This document shows positions 38,795-61,853 of a DNA stretch of 64,000 nt, piece by piece. A model generated the notes under the pieces. That model saw nothing but the letters and a program-made list of their open reading frames with translations, had not been told where the DNA came from and made no database searches. Numbering within the stretch: position 1 is the stretch's first letter; the number at the start of each line of letters is the position of its first letter. The stretch comes from Thermaerobacter sp. FW80 (lineage in GTDB: Bacteria; Bacillota; Sulfobacillia; Thermaerobacterales; Thermaerobacteraceae), in contig NZ_CP037895.1 in assembly GCF_004634385.1 (NCBI RefSeq), positions 248,001-312,000 of the forward strand, in the 5' to 3' direction. The translations under genes and the position numbers were made by a program.

Positions 38795-39715
<921 letters not shown>

Positions 39716-39821
39716 GGGAAGGGACCTCCCCGCACCGCATGGTTTGACCGGATCGTGGGGCCGGATCACTTGATGGGCCCGATCGCTGGGATCGTTGGGA
39801 TGGCGGGGCACCCACCGCGGT

Positions 39822-39881
39822 TTGACCGTCCGGTCAATTCGGTGCAAGATGATGCTAACGCGGGGCTGACCGGATGGTCAA
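39822..39881 (-). promoter_or_regulatory. Promoter with two TetR-type operators for the ABC exporter operon
   Basis: On the minus strand TTGACC (39881-39876) and TAGCAT (39857-39852) are 18 bp apart. The -35 box is part of a dyad TGACC-N4-GGTCA (39867-39880), and a second, better one, TTGACCG-N2-CGGTCAA (39822-39837), lies just downstream of the -10. Both are of the form bound by TetR/AcrR repressors, and the only such gene nearby ends the operon. Repressor binding would block polymerase. Confidence 0.7.
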
Positions 39882-39923
39882 GAGAAATCGTCCCATTTGG
39901 ACAAGCCGAGATACGAGCCGTAA

Positions 39924-40268
39924 TCAAGAAGGAATTATCGAGCGATGCCGACCAAGATGCAATGACGTCGGATCGTGCAAATAAGCTCGCAATAAAGCTC
40001 GAAACAGCGGCCCATGATTTGGCACCTTGAGATGGAGGAGCTCATGCACGATGACTTCTCGCCTGAACGCCGCACTTTCCTTAAGAAGATCTGAGTTGAA
40101 GGTCAGCCTGCCTTTGGAGGAACAACTAGCCCACTTCTTCTTCATAGGGCGCACGTGGATCTCTCGCGGCGCCACCCCGATCCGACGGGCCCAAGCAAGC
40201 ACCTCGGCCTTAAATACATCAATAGGCACCGCTTCTTCTAATCTGATCCACTGGCTGTTTTGATTCAC
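39924..40268 (-). CDS. YgjP-like (DUF45) zinc metallopeptidase linked to hsdR
   Basis: 114 residues from GTG 40268, which overlaps the hsdR stop (GTGA) and has GGAGGAAAG upstream; ATG 40283 is an alternative. The zinc motif VIVHELLHLKVPNHGPLF (His-Glu-x-x-His and a further His) and PMKKKWASCSSKGRLTFN are diagnostic of the YgjP/DUF45 SprT-like group. Such genes are often found directly after hsdR in type I restriction loci. Their role there is not established; processing of a restriction subunit or of DNA-protein crosslinks has to be considered. Shorter than the free-standing YgjP (about 170-240 residues). Confidence 0.8.
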   Translation of the reverse strand: MNQNSQWIRLEEAVPIDVFKAEVLAWARRIGVAPREIHVRPMKKKWASCSSKGRLTFNSDLLKESAAFRREVIVHELLHLKVPNHGPLFRALLRAYLHDPTSLHLGRHRSIIPS

Positions 40269-43156
40269 CCGTCTTTCCTCCATAACATCTTCAGAAGACG
40301 CTCTGCTACCTCGATGACCGTCTCGATCCCTGCGTCCATCAACACCTTGTAGAGGGCAATACGCAGTTCACGCCCCTGCTCCTCGCTCAGACGCCAGTGG
40401 GGATATCGCTCCAGGGCCTGACCGACGCGGCGTGCCACCTCTTCGGCCTCCGCAACCCCTTCCTTGCGGAGGAACCAGTACACGGCAAAGGCCTCAGGAG
40501 ACAGTTTGATTAGATTCTGGGCCTCCCGAGCCTCGCGATATTCCTGAACCAAGATCTGCAGCTGCTGCAAGGTTTCTTGGGTTGTCGCCTGCCGATCCTG
40601 ATAAGCCTGAGCGATCGCTTCCGCCCTGTCTCCGATGGAGATCAGGAAGGGCGAACGCGTGCCCTCTTCCTCAACGAGATCCCGAATGGCCTTGAGAAGG
40701 TTGAAAACTTTGACCGTGTCGGGTTGATCCGAGGCAGCAAGCCTCTCCAGGGCCTCGACGGTCAGCCTGGCCATGCCCTTGGGCGGGCCGACGAAATACG
40801 TCTCCGTGTGCTCACGAACAAGCTGCTCCGTCTTACGCAAGAAGCCCCGGTCGATCAGGATGGCCGGCTCGTACGCCGAGCGCAACAGACGGGACATGCG
40901 CGCCAATTCTTCATAGTCGGCCATGTATGGCCGCAGGAACGGATCAGGCGACAGGATCTCGTAGAGTTCTTGCAGTTCCCGGAAGAACTCGAAGAACCTG
41001 TGGCGCTCCTCCCTGTCCCGGAAATGCTCCAATACGGCCTCGCCCGCCTTGTCCTGCGGCTTCCCAGACACTAGGGGGAGCAGGTCACACCGGGCTTCGG
41101 CCATCATGGTCGCGAAGCGTTCCTTGAGGACGTCGATCCCCTGGACCACCGACTGCACGTCCTCCGAGTCGAAGGCCAGGGCCTTCTCCAGGTTGTCGAA
41201 GATGCCCACGAAGTCCAGCACGAACCCGGCCGGCTTCTTCCGCCCCTCCTCATCCTCGTAGGGACGGTTGACGCGGGCGATGGCCTGGAGCAGCACGTGG
41301 TCGCGCATGGGCTTGTCCAGGTACATGCAGTAGAGGATGGGCGCGTCGTACCCCGTAAGCAGTTTCTCCGTCACGATGAGGACCTTGGGCAGCGCATCCG
41401 GCCGACGGAAGGCCTTCCGGATCTCCTGCTCCTTCTCCGTCGTGAGGTGCCACCGTGCCAATTCCGGCGGGTCGTTGTGGCCGCGACTGATGACCACGGC
41501 CGAGTAATCCGGCGGCAGGTGGCGGTCCAACGCCTCCTTGTACAGAGCGCAGGCTTCCCGGTCAACAGCCACAAGGAACGCCTTGTAGCCCATCGGCTCG
41601 ACGGTCTCCCGGAAATGCTGGGCCACGAAGGCGGCCACCCGGTCCACCCGATCCGCGTTCTTGAGCATGTTCTTCAGGGTGACCGCCCGTTCCAGCACCC
41701 GGTTCAGTTCTTCGACGTCACTGACCCCTTCCAGCTCCGCGAGGTCCAAGAACTCGCGTTCCAGAATCTCCCGGTCCACCCGCAGGTCGTTGGGCGCTAG
41801 GGCGTAGTGGAGCGGTACGGTGGTCCCATCTTCGATGGACTCGCGGATGGAGTACTTGTCCAGGTAGCCCTTCGGCTGGTCGTCGACGCCGAAGACCTTG
41901 AAGGTTCCCTTGCCGTGGGCCGTCTTGTCGATGGGGGTGCCCGTGAACCCGAGGTAGGTGGCGTTGGGCAGCGCCCCCATGAGGTAGTTCCCCAGGTCGC
42001 CACCCGTGCTGCGGTGCGCCTCGTCCACCAGCACAAAGATGTTCCGGCGCGTGTTCACGTTGGCCGGCATGTCGTCGAACTTGTGGATCATGGACACGAT
42101 GAGCCCCCGCTGGTCCGAGCGGAGGAGCTCGTAAAGGTGCCGCTTGGACTGGGCGACTGTGACGTGCCCGAAGCCGACCGCCTCCAAGTTGGTGAACAGC
42201 TGCTGCTCCAGCTCGTTCCGGTCCACCAACATGAGCACCGTGGGATTCCCGAAGGCGGGGTCCTCCAGCAACCGCTTGGCCACGGTGATCATCGTGTAGG
42301 TCTTCCCGGACCCCTGGGTGTGCCAGATCAGGCCCCGCCGCTTCTCCGGGTCGCGGCACCGCTGCAGCACCCGCTCCACGGCTCGCATCTGGTGGGGCCG
42401 CAGCACGACCTTGCTGAGCTCGCCGTCCTTGCGGGCGAAGAGAATGTAGTCGGTGAGCATCCGCAGGACGCGCCTGGGGGCGAAGAAGTGCTTCACGAGG
42501 GTCTCGAAGTCGCCGGCCTGCTCGGCCCGCCAGTTGTACAGATCCTTCCGGGACAGGCTCCACGTGGCGCCGTAGTAAAACCGGACCAGGTGCGTGAGGG
42601 CGTGCACCTGGAGGACGGCCAGCAGCTCGGGACCCTCCCGGTGGTACCGGCGGATCTGATCGAAAGCCTCGGCGATGCCCTCGACGCGGTGCGCCGCCTT
42701 CGTCTCCACCACGATGACGGGAATGCCGTTGACGAAGAAGACCGCGTCCGGCCGGACGGTTTTCGTGCCGCTGATGAACCGCAGCTCGTCGGTGACGTGG
42801 AGCGTGTTGGCCTCCGGCGTGTCGGGATCGAGCAGCCGGACGTTGCGCTCCCGCCGCTCAGCCGCCACAAAGACTGTCTTGAGGCCCTTCAGCCACTCCC
42901 ACGCCTGCAGGTTGCCCTCGATGTTGGGCATGACGCGGGTCAGCCGCCCGATGACTTCCTCCGCCTTGACCACATCGTCCACCGCGCCGGGGTTCAGCCG
43001 CTGGAGCTGCCGGATCAGAACCTCGTGCAGCACGATGCCCGTCTCGCCCCGGCGCAGGCGCAGGGCCTCGTCCGGCGGCAGGTACGTCCAGCCGACCTCC
43101 ACGGCGTAGCGGATGAGAGGATTTTGCACCGCAGCACGCTCATTCCCGAGAGGCAC
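40265..43156 (-). CDS. hsdR: Type I restriction enzyme R subunit (HsdR)
   Basis: 963 residues. The N-terminal PD-(D/E)xK nuclease is visible with Asp137 in VRPDAVFFVNGIPVIV and Glu151-x-Lys153 in VVETKAA. The SF2 translocase follows with Walker A HTQGSGKT (279-286), DEAH at 378-381 (VLVDEAHRS) and LGFTGTPI. Helical C-terminal regions would contact the methylase. It cleaves DNA far from unmethylated sites after ATP-driven translocation, in complex with HsdM and HsdS. Its start overlaps hsdS by 17 bp. The gene is intact, but the hsdM of this operon is interrupted, so the complex should not assemble normally. Confidence 0.92.
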   Translation of the reverse strand: MPLGNERAAVQNPLIRYAVEVGWTYLPPDEALRLRRGETGIVLHEVLIRQLQRLNPGAVDDVVKAEEVIGRLTRVMPNIEGNLQAWEWLKGLKTVFVAAERRERNVRLLDPDTPEANTLHVTDELRFISGTKTVRPDAVFFVNGIPVIVVETKAAHRVEGIAEAFDQIRRYHREGPELLAVLQVHALTHLVRFYYGATWSLSRKDLYNWRAEQAGDFETLVKHFFAPRRVLRMLTDYILFARKDGELSKVVLRPHQMRAVERVLQRCRDPEKRRGLIWHTQGSGKTYTMITVAKRLLEDPAFGNPTVLMLVDRNELEQQLFTNLEAVGFGHVTVAQSKRHLYELLRSDQRGLIVSMIHKFDDMPANVNTRRNIFVLVDEAHRSTGGDLGNYLMGALPNATYLGFTGTPIDKTAHGKGTFKVFGVDDQPKGYLDKYSIRESIEDGTTVPLHYALAPNDLRVDREILEREFLDLAELEGVSDVEELNRVLERAVTLKNMLKNADRVDRVAAFVAQHFRETVEPMGYKAFLVAVDREACALYKEALDRHLPPDYSAVVISRGHNDPPELARWHLTTEKEQEIRKAFRRPDALPKVLIVTEKLLTGYDAPILYCMYLDKPMRDHVLLQAIARVNRPYEDEEGRKKPAGFVLDFVGIFDNLEKALAFDSEDVQSVVQGIDVLKERFATMMAEARCDLLPLVSGKPQDKAGEAVLEHFRDREERHRFFEFFRELQELYEILSPDPFLRPYMADYEELARMSRLLRSAYEPAILIDRGFLRKTEQLVREHTETYFVGPPKGMARLTVEALERLAASDQPDTVKVFNLLKAIRDLVEEEGTRSPFLISIGDRAEAIAQAYQDRQATTQETLQQLQILVQEYREAREAQNLIKLSPEAFAVYWFLRKEGVAEAEEVARRVGQALERYPHWRLSEEQGRELRIALYKVLMDAGIETVIEVAERLLKMLWRKDG

Positions 43157-44480
43157 CGGACGCCACTCCCTCCGTCTCGGGAAGGGACAGGTCCTTGACC
43201 CGAACTCGGCCAGTCATGAGGAGGTGGAGTAGTGTCTTAAACAGGGTGTCCAGGGCATGTATACGGGCTTCCTCCGCTTGAATCTTTAGATCTACTGCTG
43301 CGAGTAGATGGGCAATTTCCTCCTGTTCACGGAGTGATGGTAAGGGGATAAGAGAGGAACGTAAGGCCTCCAGTTGAAGATTGTATTTGCCATCTGCAGC
43401 CCGTTTACTGCAAGACGCAAAATTCACAACCTTACCACTGAGTAGAAGAAACAAGTATCTCTTATCTAACCTTTCTGTCGGCTGTACCTTAACTAAGAAC
43501 GAAGCGAAGTAAACTTCGGGAAAAGGCATCTCATTAACAATCGCCACACGCCCAATATTGTCAACGCTACCACTTGAGCCAACCAGCAAAATATCGCCAC
43601 TAAGTAAACGCTTAGAACTATTGGCCTTGCTCTTGATTCGATAAAGACCGTCAAATATTACTCGGCCATTTTTTATGTTAGGTATTGCAACAACCGGTAC
43701 ACCATTAGGATCTTCGTCTGATTTCCTCCACGAAATACCACGAATAAAGCTTGCCACATCACCAAACCTTACCACATCCCAATGCGTTGGTATCAACCCA
43801 ACTTCCGTCTCCTTCAACGGCACCCGCGCGCCTTCTTCCACCGGCACCGGGCCGTAGGTGAACAAGTACCGCATGAGGCTCTTCTTCAGCTCCCGTGCGG
43901 CGGCGAGGACATTTTGGGTTGCTTCTTTAGCGCTCTTAACACAGCGAAGGACATAGGCAATAGCGCGTTGTTCAGTAAGAGGTGGTAAAGGCACCATAAA
44001 ACGTTGGAGAACATCCTTTGTTATGCTGTTAAATATAGTTCCTGCTCCTTGACCTTCAAAAAATTTACCGGCGAATTTAAGATAGAAAAATAGGAAATCA
44101 TTGTTCAGTTTATCATTTCCGTAAATACACGCAAGACCACGACCAATGCAGTAGTCAGTATCAGCAAGATTGACGTCACCAACCGGGGCTCTAACAGATA
44201 TAAGCACCGACCCTTGACGCGCCACTTTTCGGGGAGCACAACACCACTTTACAGGTGTAGGAAATAGCTCGCCGAATTCTGCTTTGCCTTGGAGGAAAGG
44301 AAGACCCCTCCCGTCGGTGTTATACGTAGACGACGGCGGAGATTGCCCCATGGTAATACGGGCTGTTTCCCCTAAAGGTAATGCTTGCCAGTCACGTGGT
44401 AGTGGCCCCAGCTCCGTCATATTGAAATCCTCAGGAAGGTCTGCCGTTGCCTCGTCAGCCAGCTTCACCGTCTCAGCCAC
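43140..44480 (-). CDS. hsdS: Type I restriction-modification specificity subunit (HsdS)
   Basis: 446 residues from GTG 44480 (GGGAGGTG about 6 nt upstream), overlapping hsdM by 8 bp. Two target-recognition domains (about 20-190 and 230-400) are each followed by a conserved helix: PLPPLTEQRAIAYVLRCVKSA and PLPSLREQEEIAHLLAAVDLK. LGPLPRDWQALPLGETA and VGLIPTHWDVVRFGDVA are the repeat starts. Each domain reads one half of a bipartite DNA site. The central part (about 43,300-44,400) is strikingly A+T-rich compared with the rest of the window, a sign of horizontal acquisition or domain shuffling, as is common for HsdS. Confidence 0.9.
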   Translation of the reverse strand: MAETVKLADEATADLPEDFNMTELGPLPRDWQALPLGETARITMGQSPPSSTYNTDGRGLPFLQGKAEFGELFPTPVKWCCAPRKVARQGSVLISVRAPVGDVNLADTDYCIGRGLACIYGNDKLNNDFLFFYLKFAGKFFEGQGAGTIFNSITKDVLQRFMVPLPPLTEQRAIAYVLRCVKSAKEATQNVLAAARELKKSLMRYLFTYGPVPVEEGARVPLKETEVGLIPTHWDVVRFGDVASFIRGISWRKSDEDPNGVPVVAIPNIKNGRVIFDGLYRIKSKANSSKRLLSGDILLVGSSGSVDNIGRVAIVNEMPFPEVYFASFLVKVQPTERLDKRYLFLLLSGKVVNFASCSKRAADGKYNLQLEALRSSLIPLPSLREQEEIAHLLAAVDLKIQAEEARIHALDTLFKTLLHLLMTGRVRVKDLSLPETEGVASGASRE

Positions 44481-45773
44481 GGACAGCACCTCCCATCCCC
44501 AGGAATTGCAAGATCCTCTGCAGCTCCCGATCGGCCGCGGCTCTCTCTTCCTCTGCCTCCTGAAGCCGCAAGACCGCCTCATCCAGCGGAAGGACTTCCT
44601 CTCCGCCGTTTTGGACCACGTACCGGCCCGGCGAGAGGTTGTAGTCGTTGCGGGCGGCCTCTTCCAGGGTGATGATGGTGGAAAGCCCATCTTCCGCCGT
44701 CCACCCGTGATAGACCGAGGCTATGTGCTCAACATGCTCCTCGCTGAGATAGTTCTTCGGCCGCCCCTTCAGGAAAAGCTTTGAGGCGTTAATAAGTAGG
44801 ATCTCGCGCGGGTGCTTCTTGGCCTTGTTGATCACCAGGATGATCCCGGGCGCCGTCGTGTTATAGAAAAGGTTCTCCGGAAGCAGGATCACAGCTTCAA
44901 TCAGGTCCCGCTCGACGAAGGCCTTACGAATGTCTCGCTCCCGGCTCGACCCCTGGTTGCCGCTGCCCCGGCTCACCGCGCCGGTGTCCAGTACCACCGC
45001 CATGCGGCCGCCGTCCTTGAGGGCGGTGTACATGTGTTGGATCCATCCCCAGTCGGCGGTGGACGCCGGCGGTGTCCCGAACCGGAACCGGTCGAAGGGG
45101 TCATGCTCGTAAGTCTCCAGCGGGAACTTCTGGTTCCACATGGGATTGGCCGCCACCAGGTCGAACTGCTGTAGGCGCCCGTCTGGCGCCCGGAACGCCG
45201 GGCGGCGCATGGTGTCCCCGACCACGATGTCCGCCTCGATGTCATGGATGAAGGCGTTCATCCGGGCCATGGCAAAGGTCGTGGGTATCCATTCCTGACC
45301 GTAGACTTTCAAGGGAGCCACATGGGACGGCAGCTTCAGACGCCCGTTCTCCCGCACCCCGTAGCGTTCCAGAAGCCGCAGGTGGCACTTGATGAGCAAA
45401 CCGCCGGAACCGCAGCAGGGGTCGTAGACCGTCATGCCAGGCTCCGGCTCCAGGATCCGGGCCATGAGGATGGCTACCTCGCGCGGCGTGTAGAACTCGC
45501 CGGCGCTCTGTCCCTGCCCCTCGGCGAACTTGCGTAGCAGGTATTCGTACGCCCGGCCCAGGATGTCCGGCTCGACGTCGTTCAAGCCCAGCCGGTGCCT
45601 GCTCAGCACCTCGATAAGCCGGGCCAGCGGTCCGTCGTCGATGATCCGTTGCCCGGCGGCGGTGGCGTTGAAGTCCACGGCGTCGATGACGCCTTGCAGC
45701 TTCGGGTTCTCCCGCGCCACCGCCCGCACAACATCCGTCAGGTACTCGCCCAGGCCTGTGGTGCGCCGGCGGA
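44473..45773 (-). pseudogene. hsdM: hsdM, main part (cut by IS256-family element)
   Basis: C-terminal 430 or so codons of the type I methylase. It contains the methyltransferase domain: EFYTPREVAILMARIL, SAM-binding motif I VYDPCCGSGGLLIK and the catalytic motif LVAANPMWNQ (Asn-Pro-x-aromatic). It normally methylates adenine as M2S and is required for both protection and cleavage. Upstream it is separated from its first 86 codons by the 1,426-bp IS at 45774-47199. With the element and one 9-bp duplicate removed, the reading DAIRRRTTGLGEYL is continuous and in frame, so the gene was intact until a recent insertion. Confidence 0.9.
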
Positions 45774-47199
45774 GGTGACGTCCTAAACTGTCTGTAAACG
45801 CGAAGCGGTCTGGGCTACCATCGGTGGCGTCGGAAAACTCGCCCCAGCTGGGGCACACCGAGGAGGACCCAGACCTATGTCCAGGATACCACCCAGCCAG
45901 CAGTTGGCGGAGCTGGCCCGGCAGCTGGCCGCGCAGGCCCGGGAGGGTACTGAGGTCGAGGACCTGACCCATGCCCTCGTCCGCCTGGGCGCCCGCAAGC
46001 TCATCCAGGAGCTGCTGGAGGCAGAGGTCACGGAGCTTTTGGGGCGCGGACGCTACGAGCGGCGCGAGCCTGGCCAGGAAGGCGCCCGCAACGGCTACAA
46101 GCCGCGGACGCTGCGTTGCGCCGAGGGGCGGCTCGAGATCGACGTCCCCCAGGTGCGGGGCATGGAGGGACTGTGCCAGCCCACGCTGTGGAGGGCCCTC
46201 AAGCGGCGGACGGACGTGCTGGAGCGCCTGGTGGTGGAGATGTACGCCCGGGGCCTCTCTACCCGGGACATCGAGGATGCGCTGGCGGAGCTGGCGGGCA
46301 GCGAAGCGCCGCTTTTGAGCCGGTCCACCGTGAGCCGGATCACCGAGGCGCTCCACGAGGAGTTCGAGGCCTTTGCCCAGCGGGACCTGTCAGGCCTCGA
46401 CGTGGTGTACCTGTTCGCCGACGCCATCTACGAGTCGCTGCGCCGGCAGGCGGGCTGCCGTGAGGGCATCCTGGTCACCTGGGCCATCTTGAGCGACGGC
46501 AGCAAGGTGCTGGTGCACCTGAGCCTGGGCAACAAGGAGCGCTACGAGGACTGGCTGGAGCACTTCCGGGATCTGGTGCGCCGGGGGCTGAAGACGCCGC
46601 TGACGGTGACGACGGACGGGGCGCCGGGGCTGATCCAGGCGGTGGAAGCCATGTGGCCGGAGGCGGAGCGCATCCGCTGCTGGGTGCACAAGATGCGGAA
46701 CGTGCTGGACAAGGTGCCGGAGGAGGCGCGGCCCGTGCTCAAGCCCTACCTGGAGGCGATCCGGGACGCACCGGATATCGAGCAGGGCCGGCGGCTGGTG
46801 GCCGAGGTGGTGGAGCGGTTCGGGCGGGAGTATCCCTCGGCCATGCGGAGCCTGCAGGAGGACCTGGAAGCGAGCCTGGCGCACCTGCGGCTACCCGCCG
46901 CCCACCGCAAGCATGTCCGGACCACCAACCTGGTGGAGCGCAGCTTCGAGGAGGAGCGGCGGCGCGCCAAGGTGATCCCGCGGTTTCGGAGCGAGCGGGA
47001 GTGCCTGAAGCTAGTCTTCGCCGTGCTGTGGCGGGCGAGTGAGCGCTGGCGGCGGGTGCAGTTCAGCGAGCACGAACGAAAGCAGCTGGAGCGCTACATC
47101 GAGGAGCGGCAACGGCAAAGAGCGGCGCAGAAAGAGGTTTCACCCGCTGCCACCGTGGCATGACCCAGACCGCTTTTACAGACAGTTCGGGACTTGACC
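45774..47199 (+). mobile_element. IS256-family element, copy 1 (1,426 bp), in hsdM
   Basis: Left end GGTGACGTCCTAAACTGTCT and right end (read inwards) GGTCAAGTCCCGAACTGTCT form imperfect terminal inverted repeats of about 25 bp. The element is flanked by the 9-bp target duplication GCCGGCGGA (45765-45773 and 47200-47208). The same element with the same ends and length is at 60428-61853. Family assignment comes from the mutator-type transposase and the 8-9 bp duplication typical of IS256. Confidence 0.92.
45877..47163 (+). CDS. IS256-family (mutator-type) transposase, copy 1
   Basis: 428 residues from ATG 45877. Catalytic triad candidates are the Asp in [10 protein letters not shown], the Asp in [14 protein letters not shown] and the Glu in [25 protein letters not shown] is the conserved Cys-x2-His region of the family. 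The N-terminal [18 protein letters not shown] and RNGYKPRTL are standard IS256 features. The protein is identical to that of copy 2 (60531-61817), so at least one move is recent. It is encoded opposite to hsdM. Confidence 0.95.
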
Positions 47200-47458
47200 G
47201 CCGGCGGATGGCGTCCCAGCGGGCTTCAGGCGGAAGGTAGAACCGCACCAGCCTGTGGTCCTGCTCCACCAGCCGGGCCGCCGTCTTCACGTCCCCGAAC
47301 TCGTGGGCCAGGTGCGCCACCTCGTCCTCGAACACGTCCGAGAGCCGCTTAAGGAAGATCAATGGTAAGATGTAATCCTTGAACTTCGGCGCGTCCACCG
47401 CCCCGCGGATCGAGCAGGCCGCTTCCCAAAGCCAGTTCTCCAGAGTGGAGAGCTCCAT
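47200..47458 (-). pseudogene. hsdM: hsdM, 5' part (cut by IS256-family element)
   Basis: From ATG 47458 (GGAGGTGG 5 nt upstream) the first 86 codons of hsdM are present: [39 protein letters not shown], the typical HsdM N-terminal helical domain. After DAIRR the frame enters the IS and reads foreign sequence to a stop at about 47063. The fragment alone lacks any catalytic part. It marks the start of the R-M operon, which is transcribed away from the helicase gene. Confidence 0.9.
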
Positions 47459-47674
47459 GGTGCCACCTCCACACACCTCGGGACCGTAACGAACCACACG
47501 GGCGGCTCTCGACTTGGGTTCGTCCGCGGATCCCATACCCCAAGTATCGGGGTGCCTACCCGAGCCGGCAAGCCCAGTTGCCTCCCTACTGCAGGTCCCC
47601 GAACGTGATATCCCGCGGCTGATCGAGCCTGGTCCCGGATGCAGCACCTCGCGAAGACCAAGCAAGAATGTCGC

Positions 47675-47696
47675 GGGGCGTAAGACTTACGTCCCC
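47675..47696. promoter_or_regulatory. Near-perfect palindrome between hsdM and the helicase gene
   Basis: GGGGCGTAAG (47675-47684) and CTTACGTCCCC (47686-47696) pair almost completely around a single A. It lies in the 485-bp divergent region, 217 bp from hsdM and 248 bp from the helicase start. No T-run follows on either side, so an operator is as likely as a terminator. Confidence 0.4.
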
Positions 47697-47842
47697 CGAT
47701 CCCCCGGCCATCCCCCAGGAACCACCCACGTCACCGTTTTGCTGTTGGCCAGGCTCCGCCGCCCCGTGGTCCTCTCGTCGTCTCCCAGCACCATGTCGAG
47801 CAGAGAGCGGACATCCCCCCCGTCGCCGCCTCCAGTGAGTAC

Positions 47843-47881
47843 ATGACACGATTTGTCATCGTCCTGTCCGTACGATGTAGT
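47843..47881 (+). promoter_or_regulatory. Probable helicase promoter overlapping a perfect dyad
   Basis: ATGACA (47843-47848) and TGTCAT (47854-47859) form a perfect dyad with a 5-bp centre. The right arm contains the -35-like TTGTCA (47853-47858), followed after exactly 17 bp by TGTAGT (47876-47881) as a weak -10. The layout suggests a repressed promoter for the helicase gene starting 64 bp downstream. Confidence 0.4.
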
Positions 47882-47944
47882 CGGAGCCCGCCATCGCCTC
47901 GGTGGCTCCGAGTCGTGGCTTGGCGCCGGAACGGAGGGTTGGGG

Positions 47945-50695
47945 ATGGAACAAGGAGACAGCGCCCCGCTCCTGCACCTTTTGCAACAGCACGGCTTTCG
48001 TGTCGTCTACCGGACCCGCCGGCCTGGACGAACCCAGGAGGTCTTCCCCTTCGACCGGCTCGGCTTGACGGAAGCGACCTGCCGGTTTCTGGCCGCCCGG
48101 GCGCCCCAAGGTCTGTACCTGCACCAGGTCGAGGGCATCACCCGCAGCCGCAGGGGCGCGGACGTCGGCGTCACGGCCCGCACGGCTTCGGGGAAGACGC
48201 TGGTGTTCCAAGCGGTGGCTGTCGAACACCAGGCGCGCGATCCACGGGCTCGGATCCTGGCCGTCTACCCGCTCAAGGCGCTCGCCCGAGAGCAGGAGGC
48301 ACGCTGGCGACAGGCGTTTCAGGCAGCAGGATTGGACCCCGCGACCGTCGCCCGGATCGACGGCGACACCCACGCTGCGGAACGGTTGCAGCAGCTGCGC
48401 CGGGCCACGGTACTGCTCGCGACCCCGGACATCCTGCACGCGTGGCTCGTCCCCAACGTCGGCGACAACACCGTGTGGTCGTTTCTCACCACACTCCGTC
48501 TGGTCGTGGTTGACGAGGTCCATGTCTACACCGGGGTGTTCGGCTCCAACGCCGCCATGCTGTTCCGCCGTCTCGAGCACGTATGCGCGCTGGGAGAGCG
48601 GCGTTACCACTACCTGGCGGCGTCGGCGACGGTGCGCGACCCCCACCAGCACTTCAGGGCCCTCTTCGGCCGGCCCTTCGACGTCATCGACGACACCTTC
48701 GACACGTCGGGCCAACACGAACTCGATCTCATCCTCGTCGAGACCTCGGCGACGGAAGACCTGATGAGCCGCCTGTCTGCCTTTCTGGCGGGGATCGTCC
48801 GCTCCACGGACCACCGGTTCATCGCCTTCGTCGACAGCCGCAAGCAGACGGAACTCCTCGCAACCATCATCAAGCGGGAGCGTGCCGGGGCTCGGGGCGG
48901 AGATGGAAGTGGGGAGGCAAGCGTGGACGGCATCCTCGAGGATGGAGGGGATGGAACGGGCAGCCTCGGAGTGGTCGAACCCTCCGCGGACCGCCGCAAG
49001 GGGCGCCGCGGCCACGAGTGGACCGCTCTCGACGTGCTGCCTTACCGGGCCGGCCTCGAGGAGGAGGATCGCGCGCTGATCGAGCAGCGCCTGGCCACGG
49101 GCAACCTACGCGGTATCATCAGCACCAGCGCGCTGGAGCTCGGCATCGACGTCCCCCATCTGGACGTGGGGGTGCTGGTCGGGGTGCCCCACTCGGCGAC
49201 CAGTCTGCAACAGCGGATGGGACGCATTGGGCGACACGGTCCGGGCACGGTCATCATCGTCAACAACCGGGACTTCAACAGCGAGATGGTCTTTCGACAC
49301 CCGGAGACCATCTTGAACCTCCCCCCGGCGGAGAGTGCCCTCTACCTGGAAAACCAACGCATTCAGTACATCCACGCCATGTGCCTGGCGCGTCCGGGGG
49401 GCGAGCACGACCAGGCCGCCATCCGTGCCGGACGCACCGAGGACGGGGCAGACTTCTCATCACCCGTGGATTGGCCGGAAGGCTTCCTCGAACTGTGCCG
49501 CCGGGAACGCGTGGGTGCGACGCCACCCAATTTACAGCCCATGAAGGTGGAGGCCGGGGATACCCCCCATGCCGTGTTCCCCCTGCGGGACGTGGACGCC
49601 CAGTTTCACATCGAGCTCCACGTAGGCTGGGAACGAGAGGATCTGGGTTCGATCTCGCATGGGCAGTTGATGCGCGAGGCCTATCCCGGCGCGATCTACT
49701 ACTACTTGACCCAGCCCTACCGGGTCACCCAGGTCCACCGCACCCGGCGCGTGGTCAAGGTTCGCCGCGAACACCGTCACTACACGACCCGGCCTCTCGG
49801 CCCGATCTCCATCGTCCGGCCGTACCTGCAACCCGGCGAGGTCTACCGCGCGAAGCGCTGGGGCGAGCTGGTGCTGCTCGAGACGCAGGTGCAGATCCAG
49901 GAGAAGGTCGAAGGATACCGGGAACGCAGGGGCAGCACCGAGATCACGGAGCGGTATCCCCTGCCGTTGGAGAAGGGCTACTTCCGCCAGCCGGCCTTCA
50001 CCCGGTACTACTACACGACAGGCGTCGTCCTCTTTCACCCCGGCTTACAGGACGATGTGGAACTGACCCGGCTCGCTCAACGGATCTACGATGCCTTCCT
50101 GCTGATTCTGCCCTTCGAGCGCCAGGACATTGACTATGCTGCCGGCCAGTTGGGCGGCACGCCGCCCCGTCCCCTCTACCCCGGCGCCCGCTTCATCGCC
50201 ATCTATGACCAGACCTATGGCAGTCTGCGGCTCAGCGGGAGGCTGGCCGAACCCGAAGTGGTACGCCAGGTCCTGGCCAAGGCCGCCGAATCCGTCGATG
50301 TGTCCGGAGGTCTGAGCCGAACCAGCGCCGCCTGGCTCGAAGAGGCCCGGCGAATGGCGGAGACCCACGTGCCCGTCGATGTCCCGGAGCTGTTGACTCC
50401 CGAAGCCGCACTGACCCAGGAACCGTCGGACGACCACGTCGTCGAGGTCATCCTCCCAGGCAGCGTCGGGCTCGACGCGATGCGCAACCATGAGGAGTTC
50501 TTCGTCGAGGCGGTCGTGTTCAATGCCGTAGCGGGAACGCTCTGTTACCGAGGCCGCCACGCCTCGACACCCGCCGGCGACCCCACCCTCATCACCTTGG
50601 TACCTGTGACCAATCTGATCCCTATTCACGGAGAGAGCCGCCTGGGCCTGTACAACCTGATGGATGGCACCATCACGCCACGGTCTTCATCCTGA
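47945..50695 (+). CDS. Hrq1/YprA-like SF2 DNA helicase in a defence locus
   Basis: 916 residues from ATG 47945 (GGAGGG 6 nt upstream). Motif I is TARTASGKTL (77-86) after the Q-like LYLHQVEGI, motif II DEVH (190-193, in VVVDEVHVYTGVFGS), motif III AASATVRD, and motif VI QQRMGRIGRHG with SALELGIDVPHLDVG. These are hallmarks of the Hrq1/YprA (MrfA) group. The C-terminal 400 residues resemble the region that in MrfA carries the DUF1998/MZB zinc site (IYDQTYGSLRL), but no four-cysteine cluster is present. A Gly/Asp-rich insert (about 320-360) follows the first half of domain 2. Divergent from a type I R-M operon. DNA repair or anti-phage role is inferred, not shown. Confidence 0.8.
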   Translation: MEQGDSAPLLHLLQQHGFRVVYRTRRPGRTQEVFPFDRLGLTEATCRFLAARAPQGLYLHQVEGITRSRRGADVGVTARTASGKTLVFQAVAVEHQARDPRARILAVYPLKALAREQEARWRQAFQAAGLDPATVARIDGDTHAAERLQQLRRATVLLATPDILHAWLVPNVGDNTVWSFLTTLRLVVVDEVHVYTGVFGSNAAMLFRRLEHVCALGERRYHYLAASATVRDPHQHFRALFGRPFDVIDDTFDTSGQHELDLILVETSATEDLMSRLSAFLAGIVRSTDHRFIAFVDSRKQTELLATIIKRERAGARGGDGSGEASVDGILEDGGDGTGSLGVVEPSADRRKGRRGHEWTALDVLPYRAGLEEEDRALIEQRLATGNLRGIISTSALELGIDVPHLDVGVLVGVPHSATSLQQRMGRIGRHGPGTVIIVNNRDFNSEMVFRHPETILNLPPAESALYLENQRIQYIHAMCLARPGGEHDQAAIRAGRTEDGADFSSPVDWPEGFLELCRRERVGATPPNLQPMKVEAGDTPHAVFPLRDVDAQFHIELHVGWEREDLGSISHGQLMREAYPGAIYYYLTQPYRVTQVHRTRRVVKVRREHRHYTTRPLGPISIVRPYLQPGEVYRAKRWGELVLLETQVQIQEKVEGYRERRGSTEITERYPLPLEKGYFRQPAFTRYYYTTGVVLFHPGLQDDVELTRLAQRIYDAFLLILPFERQDIDYAAGQLGGTPPRPLYPGARFIAIYDQTYGSLRLSGRLAEPEVVRQVLAKAAESVDVSGGLSRTSAAWLEEARRMAETHVPVDVPELLTPEAALTQEPSDDHVVEVILPGSVGLDAMRNHEEFFVEAVVFNAVAGTLCYRGRHASTPAGDPTLITLVPVTNLIPIHGESRLGLYNLMDGTITPRSSS

Positions 50696-50939
50696 ATGCG
50701 GTACATGGCCCGGGCGTTGCCGGTCGTGGATCACGCGAACCGGCCTGCCGTCCCGTAGACACGCCCGCGTGGCTCCCCACGGGCTGCGGACGTTGGGGAT
50801 AAGCCGACCAGCGGCCGTGGGAAGTCGGGATCCCCGCGGCACGTTGGAACGCGTCACTTGGCACACGTGAAACCTGGAGGTTTCCCCAGCTCTCGCCCCG
50901 CCACAGGCCGGCGGGCCGCGCCTGGTGGCAACAGCCCAG

Positions 50940-60427: not shown

Positions 60428-61853
60428 GGTGACGTCCTAAACTGTCTGTAAACGCGAAGCGGTCTGGGCTACCATCGGTGGCGTCGGAAAACTCGCCCCA
60501 GCTGGGGCACACCGAGGAGGACCCAGACCTATGTCCAGGATACCACCCAGCCAGCAGTTGGCGGAGCTGGCCCGGCAGCTGGCCGCGCAGGCCCGGGAGG
60601 GTACTGAGGTCGAGGACCTGACCCATGCCCTCGTCCGCCTGGGCGCCCGCAAGCTCATCCAGGAGCTGCTGGAGGCAGAGGTCACGGAGCTTTTGGGGCG
60701 CGGACGCTACGAGCGGCGCGAGCCTGGCCAGGAAGGCGCCCGCAACGGCTACAAGCCGCGGACGCTGCGTTGCGCCGAGGGGCGGCTCGAGATCGACGTC
60801 CCCCAGGTGCGGGGCATGGAGGGACTGTGCCAGCCCACGCTGTGGAGGGCCCTCAAGCGGCGGACGGACGTGCTGGAGCGCCTGGTGGTGGAGATGTACG
60901 CCCGGGGCCTCTCTACCCGGGACATCGAGGATGCGCTGGCGGAGCTGGCGGGCAGCGAAGCGCCGCTTTTGAGCCGGTCCACCGTGAGCCGGATCACCGA
61001 GGCGCTCCACGAGGAGTTCGAGGCCTTTGCCCAGCGGGACCTGTCAGGCCTCGACGTGGTGTACCTGTTCGCCGACGCCATCTACGAGTCGCTGCGCCGG
61101 CAGGCGGGCTGCCGTGAGGGCATCCTGGTCACCTGGGCCATCTTGAGCGACGGCAGCAAGGTGCTGGTGCACCTGAGCCTGGGCAACAAGGAGCGCTACG
61201 AGGACTGGCTGGAGCACTTCCGGGATCTGGTGCGCCGGGGGCTGAAGACGCCGCTGACGGTGACGACGGACGGGGCGCCGGGGCTGATCCAGGCGGTGGA
61301 AGCCATGTGGCCGGAGGCGGAGCGCATCCGCTGCTGGGTGCACAAGATGCGGAACGTGCTGGACAAGGTGCCGGAGGAGGCGCGGCCCGTGCTCAAGCCC
61401 TACCTGGAGGCGATCCGGGACGCACCGGATATCGAGCAGGGCCGGCGGCTGGTGGCCGAGGTGGTGGAGCGGTTCGGGCGGGAGTATCCCTCGGCCATGC
61501 GGAGCCTGCAGGAGGACCTGGAAGCGAGCCTGGCGCACCTGCGGCTACCCGCCGCCCACCGCAAGCATGTCCGGACCACCAACCTGGTGGAGCGCAGCTT
61601 CGAGGAGGAGCGGCGGCGCGCCAAGGTGATCCCGCGGTTTCGGAGCGAGCGGGAGTGCCTGAAGCTAGTCTTCGCCGTGCTGTGGCGGGCGAGTGAGCGC
61701 TGGCGGCGGGTGCAGTTCAGCGAGCACGAACGAAAGCAGCTGGAGCGCTACATCGAGGAGCGGCAACGGCAAAGAGCGGCGCAGAAAGAGGTTTCACCCG
61801 CTGCCACCGTGGCATGACCCAGACCGCTTTTACAGACAGTTCGGGACTTGACC
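60428..61853 (+). mobile_element. IS256-family element, copy 2 (1,426 bp), in the GH5 gene
   Basis: Same ends, length and transposase as the copy at 45774-47199. Flanked by its own 9-bp target duplication CCGACCCAT (60419-60427 and 61854-61862), so it inserted independently. Both copies have the same orientation and enclose 13.2 kb. Confidence 0.92.
60531..61817 (+). CDS. IS256-family (mutator-type) transposase, copy 2
   Basis: 428 residues, identical to the transposase at 45877-47163, with the same Asp ([10 protein letters not shown]), Asp (VTTDGAPGL) and Glu (NLVERSFEE) catalytic candidates. Intact and probably active. Inserted in opposite orientation to the GH5 gene. Confidence 0.95.
   Translation: MSRIPPSQQLAELARQLAAQAREGTEVEDLTHALVRLGARKLIQELLEAEVTELLGRGRYERREPGQEGARNGYKPRTLRCAEGRLEIDVPQVRGMEGLCQPTLWRALKRRTDVLERLVVEMYARGLSTRDIEDALAELAGSEAPLLSRSTVSRITEALHEEFEAFAQRDLSGLDVVYLFADAIYESLRRQAGCREGILVTWAILSDGSKVLVHLSLGNKERYEDWLEHFRDLVRRGLKTPLTVTTDGAPGLIQAVEAMWPEAERIRCWVHKMRNVLDKVPEEARPVLKPYLEAIRDAPDIEQGRRLVAEVVERFGREYPSAMRSLQEDLEASLAHLRLPAAHRKHVRTTNLVERSFEEERRRAKVIPRFRSERECLKLVFAVLWRASERWRRVQFSEHERKQLERYIEERQRQRAAQKEVSPAATVA

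Follow-up and report, generated by a model that had tools for sequence, protein, structure and literature searches.

A YprA/MrfA-type helicase branch without the zinc cluster, carried beside a type I restriction-modification operon in Thermaerobacter, as a candidate accessory anti-invader helicase

The 64,000-nucleotide stretch of the Thermaerobacter sp. FW80 genome analysed here (the window) encodes a 916-residue helicase, P0001, and the reading that we favour, with moderate confidence, is that this protein belongs to a separate YprA/MrfA branch in which the zinc cluster has been lost, ends in a small SH3/Tudor-like barrel and serves as an accessory anti-invader helicase. The gene is probably mobile and part of bacterial immunity, and we infer an anti-phage activity for its product. 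Two points give it wider relevance. First, it is a candidate defence gene missed by current models, its best PADLOC match being a BrxH-type helicase model that covers the helicase core only. Secondly, a second compact and widespread YprA branch without the cysteine cluster is a natural test of the role of that cluster.

The features of the region are listed in Table 1. The P0001 frame is intact in translation from its ATG at 47945 to its end at 50695; an alternative longer frame begins at 47843, and the copy in a second genome of the genus (G021), which is 95% identical, is read from the ATG matching 47945. Pfam identifies DEAD (2e-23) and Helicase_C (5e-14) domains in P0001 and no MZB match, and the closest solved structure is that of YprA/MrfA (6znp, 2e-49), so that the original prediction of a helicase core of the YprA/MrfA/Hrq1 group is borne out. 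Both an SF2 core with a DEVH box and QxxGRxGR and an OB-CON canopy after RecA2 (from the structural overlay and hhalign) are present as expected of the family, and the four-cysteine zinc cluster (MZB/DUF1998) is absent; because of this absence we regard P0001 as a variant branch rather than an ordinary YprA/MrfA member. Membership of TIGR03817 was considered and rejected (234 bits, cut-off 874). In an alignment of 11 family members (A1) the mean column identity is 52%, the helicase motifs are invariant, and a YDQTYGSLRL segment is kept across phyla. The insertion within RecA2 (residues 318–357) contains no cysteine. No nuclease domain was recognised in P0001 by any search run, and a search for promoters and terminators near the gene yielded no usable result.

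Table 1. Features of the helicase gene and its accessory block (window coordinates; G000 is the genome of the window, G021, G068 and G107 are other genomes).
Feature	Position	Strand	Basis
Accessory block, approximate limits	39750..50885	.	present in G000 and G021; absent from G068 and G107
hsdR, intact, 954 aa	40265..43129	-	profile matches
hsdS open frame, 516 aa, true start not fixed	43140..44690	-	profile matches
hsdM 3' part (N6_Mtase domain), cut by the IS	44473..45773	-	profile match, DNA comparison
IS of 1,426 bp with Mutator-type transposase and terminal inverted repeats, inside hsdM	45774..47199	+	DNA comparison
hsdM 5' part, parted from the remainder by the IS	47200..47458	-	DNA comparison
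P0001, MZB-less YprA/MrfA-type SF2 helicase, 916 aa	47945..50695	+	ORF, Pfam, structure model, alignment A1
RecA1 core, residues 48-262; DEVH box (invariant D190, E191, H193), SAT 227-229	48086..48730	+	A1 invariant columns; Pfam DEAD
RecA2 core, residues 284-446; motif VI Q423-R424-G426-R427-G429-R430	48794..49282	+	A1 invariant columns; Pfam Helicase_C
Low-confidence, probably disordered insertion in RecA2, residues 318-357	48896..49015	+	pLDDT <50; mostly gap in other A1 rows
Beta-rich canopy, equivalent of MrfA OB/CON, residues ~553-735	49601..50149	+	model secondary structure; MrfA overlay to 806
MZB-fold remnant DQTYGSLRLSGRLA, residues 755-768, aligned with MrfA DAYPGGVGLAEKAY; the CxCxxGCPxC that comes next in MrfA is missing	50207..50248	+	hhalign; Cys scan
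Small C-terminal beta-barrel, residues 832-912, SH3/Tudor/KOW-like at most (Z 7.5)	50438..50680	+	separate fold, VIA-align

An AlphaFold2 model of P0001 (built from 11 sequences, mean pLDDT 80.5) has MrfA as its best match in Foldseek (1.3e-41), and MrfA is also at the top in VIA-align, with a Z of 31.4, an rmsd of 4.1, 701 aligned residues and 21% identity over model residues 2–806; the next unrelated row scores 22.6. The hhalign comparison with four canonical MrfA proteins spans 646 columns and ends at DQTYGSLRLSGRL opposite MrfA DAYPGGVGLAEK, just before the MrfA CxCxxGCPxC. An overlay that continues to residue 806, together with profile homology that stops before the MrfA cysteines, indicates that P0001 has retained the canopy (whose OB and CON domain names we take from PMC12458937) and lost the zinc hairpin. 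Only three cysteines occur in the 470 residues of P0001 that follow RecA2; a pattern scan of this region finds the four-cysteine motif in all four canonical MrfA rows, in none of the clade members with a full readable tail, and in two outgroup relatives, the second copy in L046 and L047. The claimed absence of the four-cysteine MZB/DUF1998 site is thus confirmed by both Pfam and the pattern scan. In PMC12458937 this cluster is said to characterise the YprA family and to be lost in Dpd. The C-terminal region had also been described as extended, and some 110 residues do remain past the end of the MrfA alignment, but the region is not unrelated, being still an MrfA-type canopy minus the zinc hairpin. 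Modelled alone, residues 832–912 give a confident small barrel of about 80 residues, with no Foldseek match at E≤0.001; its SH3/Tudor label is tentative, as the best VIA-align Z is in the range of a mere common small barrel. A split canopy, with a DrmB-like partner near the helicase, was considered and rejected, the sole PF09369 (MZB) match in the genome of the window being an MrfA-like gene (G000:C1:2154220) some 1.86 Mb distant by contig coordinates.

A scan of 84,980 species genomes returned 14 loci, of which 13 span most of the query, with relatives in the Bacillota, Chloroflexota, Myxococcota and Pseudomonadota; this number of near-full-length relatives from one scan, and the identity seen in A1, set the family above chance. 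Its distribution is patchy, with strong profile matches (E≤1e-100) in 10 of the 398 genomes of the phylum. A phage origin of the helicase was rejected, as two phage records have short core matches only and no full-length relative, and the viral contig collection contains no relative. Plasmid relatives were similarly set aside: 792 records match, only one of them over 80% or more of the query in one place, and most look, from their partial coverage, like other helicases.

In a tree of 49 RecA1/RecA2 rows (including four from MrfA, eight from DISARM, two from Dpd and seven of ARMADA/Druantia size), 23 rows including that of the window form one clade with support of 97/99, apart from the MrfA, DISARM, Dpd and ARMADA/Druantia-size rows, one of the last (L106) being placed elsewhere in the tree. 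The branch uniting this clade with MrfA is weak (88/42) and the tree does not fix the exact sister group; two outgroup copies lie outside the clade, and some rows are long-branched. The tree group labelled FAM also took in L046 and L047, which are outside the 23-row clade yet are both among the 23 loci used for the neighbourhood comparison below. The helicase frames of L015 and L016 are broken; L015, L039, L048, L049, L091 and L097 are not in the tree, L016 is represented by its N-terminal frame only, and it was kept despite this defect, as were L010, whose contig is cut short, and L006, which has a damaged N-terminus. A RecA1 profile of the family gives 157–168 bits with MrfA, 36–90 with the ARMADA/Druantia-size rows and up to 35 with Dpd; only two of ten DISARM rows score, at up to 23 bits. 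The clade is not described in the literature searched, which includes part of PMC12458937; the nearly 52,000 sequences of that study may include it.

Within this genus the helicase travels on one mobile block with a type I restriction-modification operon, to which it is not obligatorily tied. The helicase and hsdRSM are present together on about 11 kb in two genomes of the genus and jointly missing from two others, G107 and G068, in which the sequences flanking the block (window ~39,750 and ~50,885) are separated by about 350 bp in G107 and 110 bp in G068; it is from these near-adjacent flanks that the joint absence of all four genes is read. The simplest reading is that the block was gained or lost as one unit, with two insertions at one site as a possible alternative; G068 has a further insertion of about 1.3 kb beside the block site. 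We note several palindromes of the TTGACCGnnCGGTCAA type beside the left edge of the block (window 39,690–39,880), also seen by eye in G068 and G107, which are perhaps an operator. Between the window and G021, hsdS (window ~43352–44386, compared with L038) is barely alignable as DNA, whereas hsdR is 92% identical, a pattern that an exchange of target recognition domains would produce.

The operon is divergent from the helicase and of type I, as originally predicted, but it is not intact, the 1,426-bp IS splitting hsdM after about 86 codons between 9-bp target duplications (45765–45773 and 47200–47208). hsdM is whole in G021. Because the G000 genome has no N6_Mtase match other than the split gene, restriction-modification is probably inactive in the window strain; judged from sequence, the system is probably dead, with the helicase frame intact. 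The IS has 27 full-length copies among 33 matches in this genome, a number that points to a very active or recent expansion, and is therefore active or recently so. Two identical copies lie at window 45774–47199 and 60428–61853.

These observations bear on the proposal that the helicase and the neighbouring type I genes are functional partners, the helicase acting with them as one system on HsdR-made ends or single-stranded DNA, which we consider rather unlikely. It is favoured by the shared presence and shared absence of the block, and by a YprA-like pair that begins 67 bp behind the type III mod-res genes of L046; it is opposed by the divergent transcription and ~490-bp spacing, by the lack of a type I operon at the other family loci examined, and by an intact helicase frame next to a cut hsdM with no second N6_Mtase-family gene, although the IS may have inserted too recently for decay to be visible. 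With hsdM broken, such a partnership is not needed now in the window strain. The predicted link to restriction-modification therefore stands as co-inheritance in one genus but not as a general rule, other members lying by CRISPR, type III restriction-modification, SIR2-HerA, Shedu or Hma genes.

At 23 family loci (A4, 135 proteins) and, as controls, at 11 canonical MrfA loci in family-carrying genomes (A3, 82 proteins, with L113 and L114 near copies), as many as four called genes per side were compared. The family set leaves out L015 for its broken frame, L017 for matching over a short core stretch, L038 and L044 because they nearly duplicate the window and L043, and L039, L048 and L049 because they share contigs with L011, L006 and L012, respectively. 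Genes were called by a codon-score picker, which missed hsdS and hsdM of the window; several family contigs are short and hide neighbours. At 1e-20 PADLOC matched 132 families in A4 and seven in A3, figures inflated by redundant models and the larger A4. The pooled tally, which includes eight neighbours from the window, names no members, and chosen proteins were therefore scanned singly, as were the window hsd genes with profiles and the HmaC-like gene of L052, which lies beyond its eight-gene list.

Specific defence matches occur at 12 of the 23 family loci and one of the 11 controls (p = 0.017, one-sided), the category of specific matches being a judgement made after the matches were seen. 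They are REase_I at the window; SIR2, HerA and a GajB-like protein (L004); two Csm3 (L005); an MkoC-like protein (L007); the Shedu protein SduA (L009); Cas4, Cas1 and Cas2 (L010); a PglX/type II methylase (L012); HmaC and HmaB (L016); Cas10d, Cas3 and Cas6 (L041); PDC-M26A (L043); type III mod and res (L046); and an HmaC fragment (L052). The control is L112, with a DUF499/HmaC gene and a methylase; in two other controls AAA ATPases that we regard as generic give matches to IetA models, and there are two untraced mad3 matches besides. At E≤1e-60 the counts are 9/23 and 1/11 (p 0.08), and with all four remaining weak control matches counted they become 12/23 and 5/11 (p = 0.5). The predicted defence role thus gains support from the specific matches, but this contrast vanishes if the weak control matches are counted. 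No obligate partner, sensor or nuclease is conserved across the clade, which, like the absence of full-length relatives from the phage and viral collections, weighs against the favoured reading.

Several arrangements deserve mention in their own right. In L046 (8551–13737) two tandem YprA-like helicases lie right behind type III mod-res, one with and one without the four-cysteine motif. L004 (2902–12604) lines up SIR2, HerA, a GajB-like UvrD, a 408-residue gene of unknown function and the helicase, which may together be one larger system. L009 (5036–15831) combines Shedu SduA, transposase-like genes, the helicase, a STAS/GHKL gene and a phage-type integrase, and is likely a mobile defence island. 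In L043 (5223–8929) a gene pair, one member encoding a PDC-M26A-like AAA protein, is convergent to the helicase, which it also adjoins in L044.

The original prediction found no partner gene, and this applies to the window, but a four-member subclade (L007, L009, L013 and L016) has its own: a gene of 339–345 codons immediately downstream of the helicase, co-directional and overlapping it or within 2 bp. The copies are 51–59% identical to that of L009; three of the four have weak HATPase matches below the Pfam cut-off, and the N-terminal half is, by eye, presumably STAS-like. These four loci provide a ready two-gene candidate system.

The remaining 11 of the 23 family loci have no specific defence match, and some lie, by eye, amid housekeeping genes (carAB, purEK, glycolysis); at L007, which does have a specific match, the helicase adjoins xseAB-like genes. 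Such settings, and a fold and core nearest to MrfA, are what would be expected of a second DNA-repair helicase, an MrfA paralogue that deals with mitomycin-type damage or with recombination and happens to ride on mobile islands. We think this unlikely: the host keeps its separate MZB-bearing MrfA-like gene, so that the housekeeping role is already filled, and the patchy distribution and many defence components as neighbours also argue against it. A prevalence of homologues in repair operons was named in advance as evidence against a defence role; no repair-operon context dominates, though L007 lies by xseAB-like genes and several loci are set among housekeeping genes. That the helicase is degenerate or a passenger with no present function is very improbable, for although the zinc cluster is lost and two frames in the family are broken, relatives in different phyla share the helicase motifs and the YDQTYGSLRL segment, and dN/dS is 0.22 (G000 and G021, mostly recording the time before the IS insertion) and 0.11 in a second pair.

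As an accessory anti-invader helicase, P0001 may be expected to work much as MrfA does, which is a 3'-5' helicase with a canopy that clamps single-stranded DNA and moves with ATP cycles (PMC12458937, citing others). Since the core and canopy are retained, P0001 should translocate likewise. It would bind single-stranded or broken invading DNA, move 3' to 5' with ATP using the OB-CON canopy as a clamp, and unwind or clear the DNA so that nucleases of a neighbouring defence system or of the host could destroy it; with none recognised in P0001 itself, the nuclease would have to come from one of these sources. A broader and more speculative reading, offered tentatively, is that the zinc-free YprA branch is an interchangeable module recruited by type I and III restriction-modification, CRISPR-Cas, SIR2-HerA, Shedu and Hma systems, one subclade being a two-gene system with a STAS/GHKL ATPase, and that the Tudor-like barrel replacing the zinc cluster is a recognition or docking part.

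By the features examined, P0001 is neither DISARM, Dpd, Druantia nor ARMADA. With DISARM (DrmA/DrmB) it shares a YprA-type helicase alongside restriction-modification genes, but the canopy is a separate gene there (PMC12458937) and is fused in P0001; the DrmA rows barely score with the RecA1 profile and branch apart, and the DrmA NCBIfam models give P0001 34–36 bits, below their cut-offs of 950–999. No separate DrmB (DUF1998) gene lies near the helicase, in agreement with the prediction that a DISARM-type partner is lacking at the window. DpdJ of Dpd also belongs to the YprA family, and canonical Dpd is likewise reported to be without the four-cysteine cluster (PMC12458937), but DpdJ is about 1,510 residues long, both DpdJ rows fall outside the P0001 clade, and P0001 reaches 53 bits with NF041067, below its cut-off of 800. 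ARMADA and Druantia have YprA helicases of defence islands, and at L004 a GajB-like UvrD gene likewise lies upstream; these helicases are separate in the tree, where rows were named provisionally by size and profile, and in those rows are 1,650–2,140 residues long with extra modules, including zinc-binding RecA2 modules that the 916-residue P0001, with its low-confidence, cysteine-free insertion, does not have. One relative, L012, has a PglX-like gene near the helicase. The closest likeness is to MrfA/YprA of B. subtilis (6znp), with which P0001 shares RecA1, RecA2 and the canopy over the overlaid residues 2–806, and from which it differs in lacking the four-cysteine MZB and in its extra C-terminal barrel, separate clade and accessory distribution.
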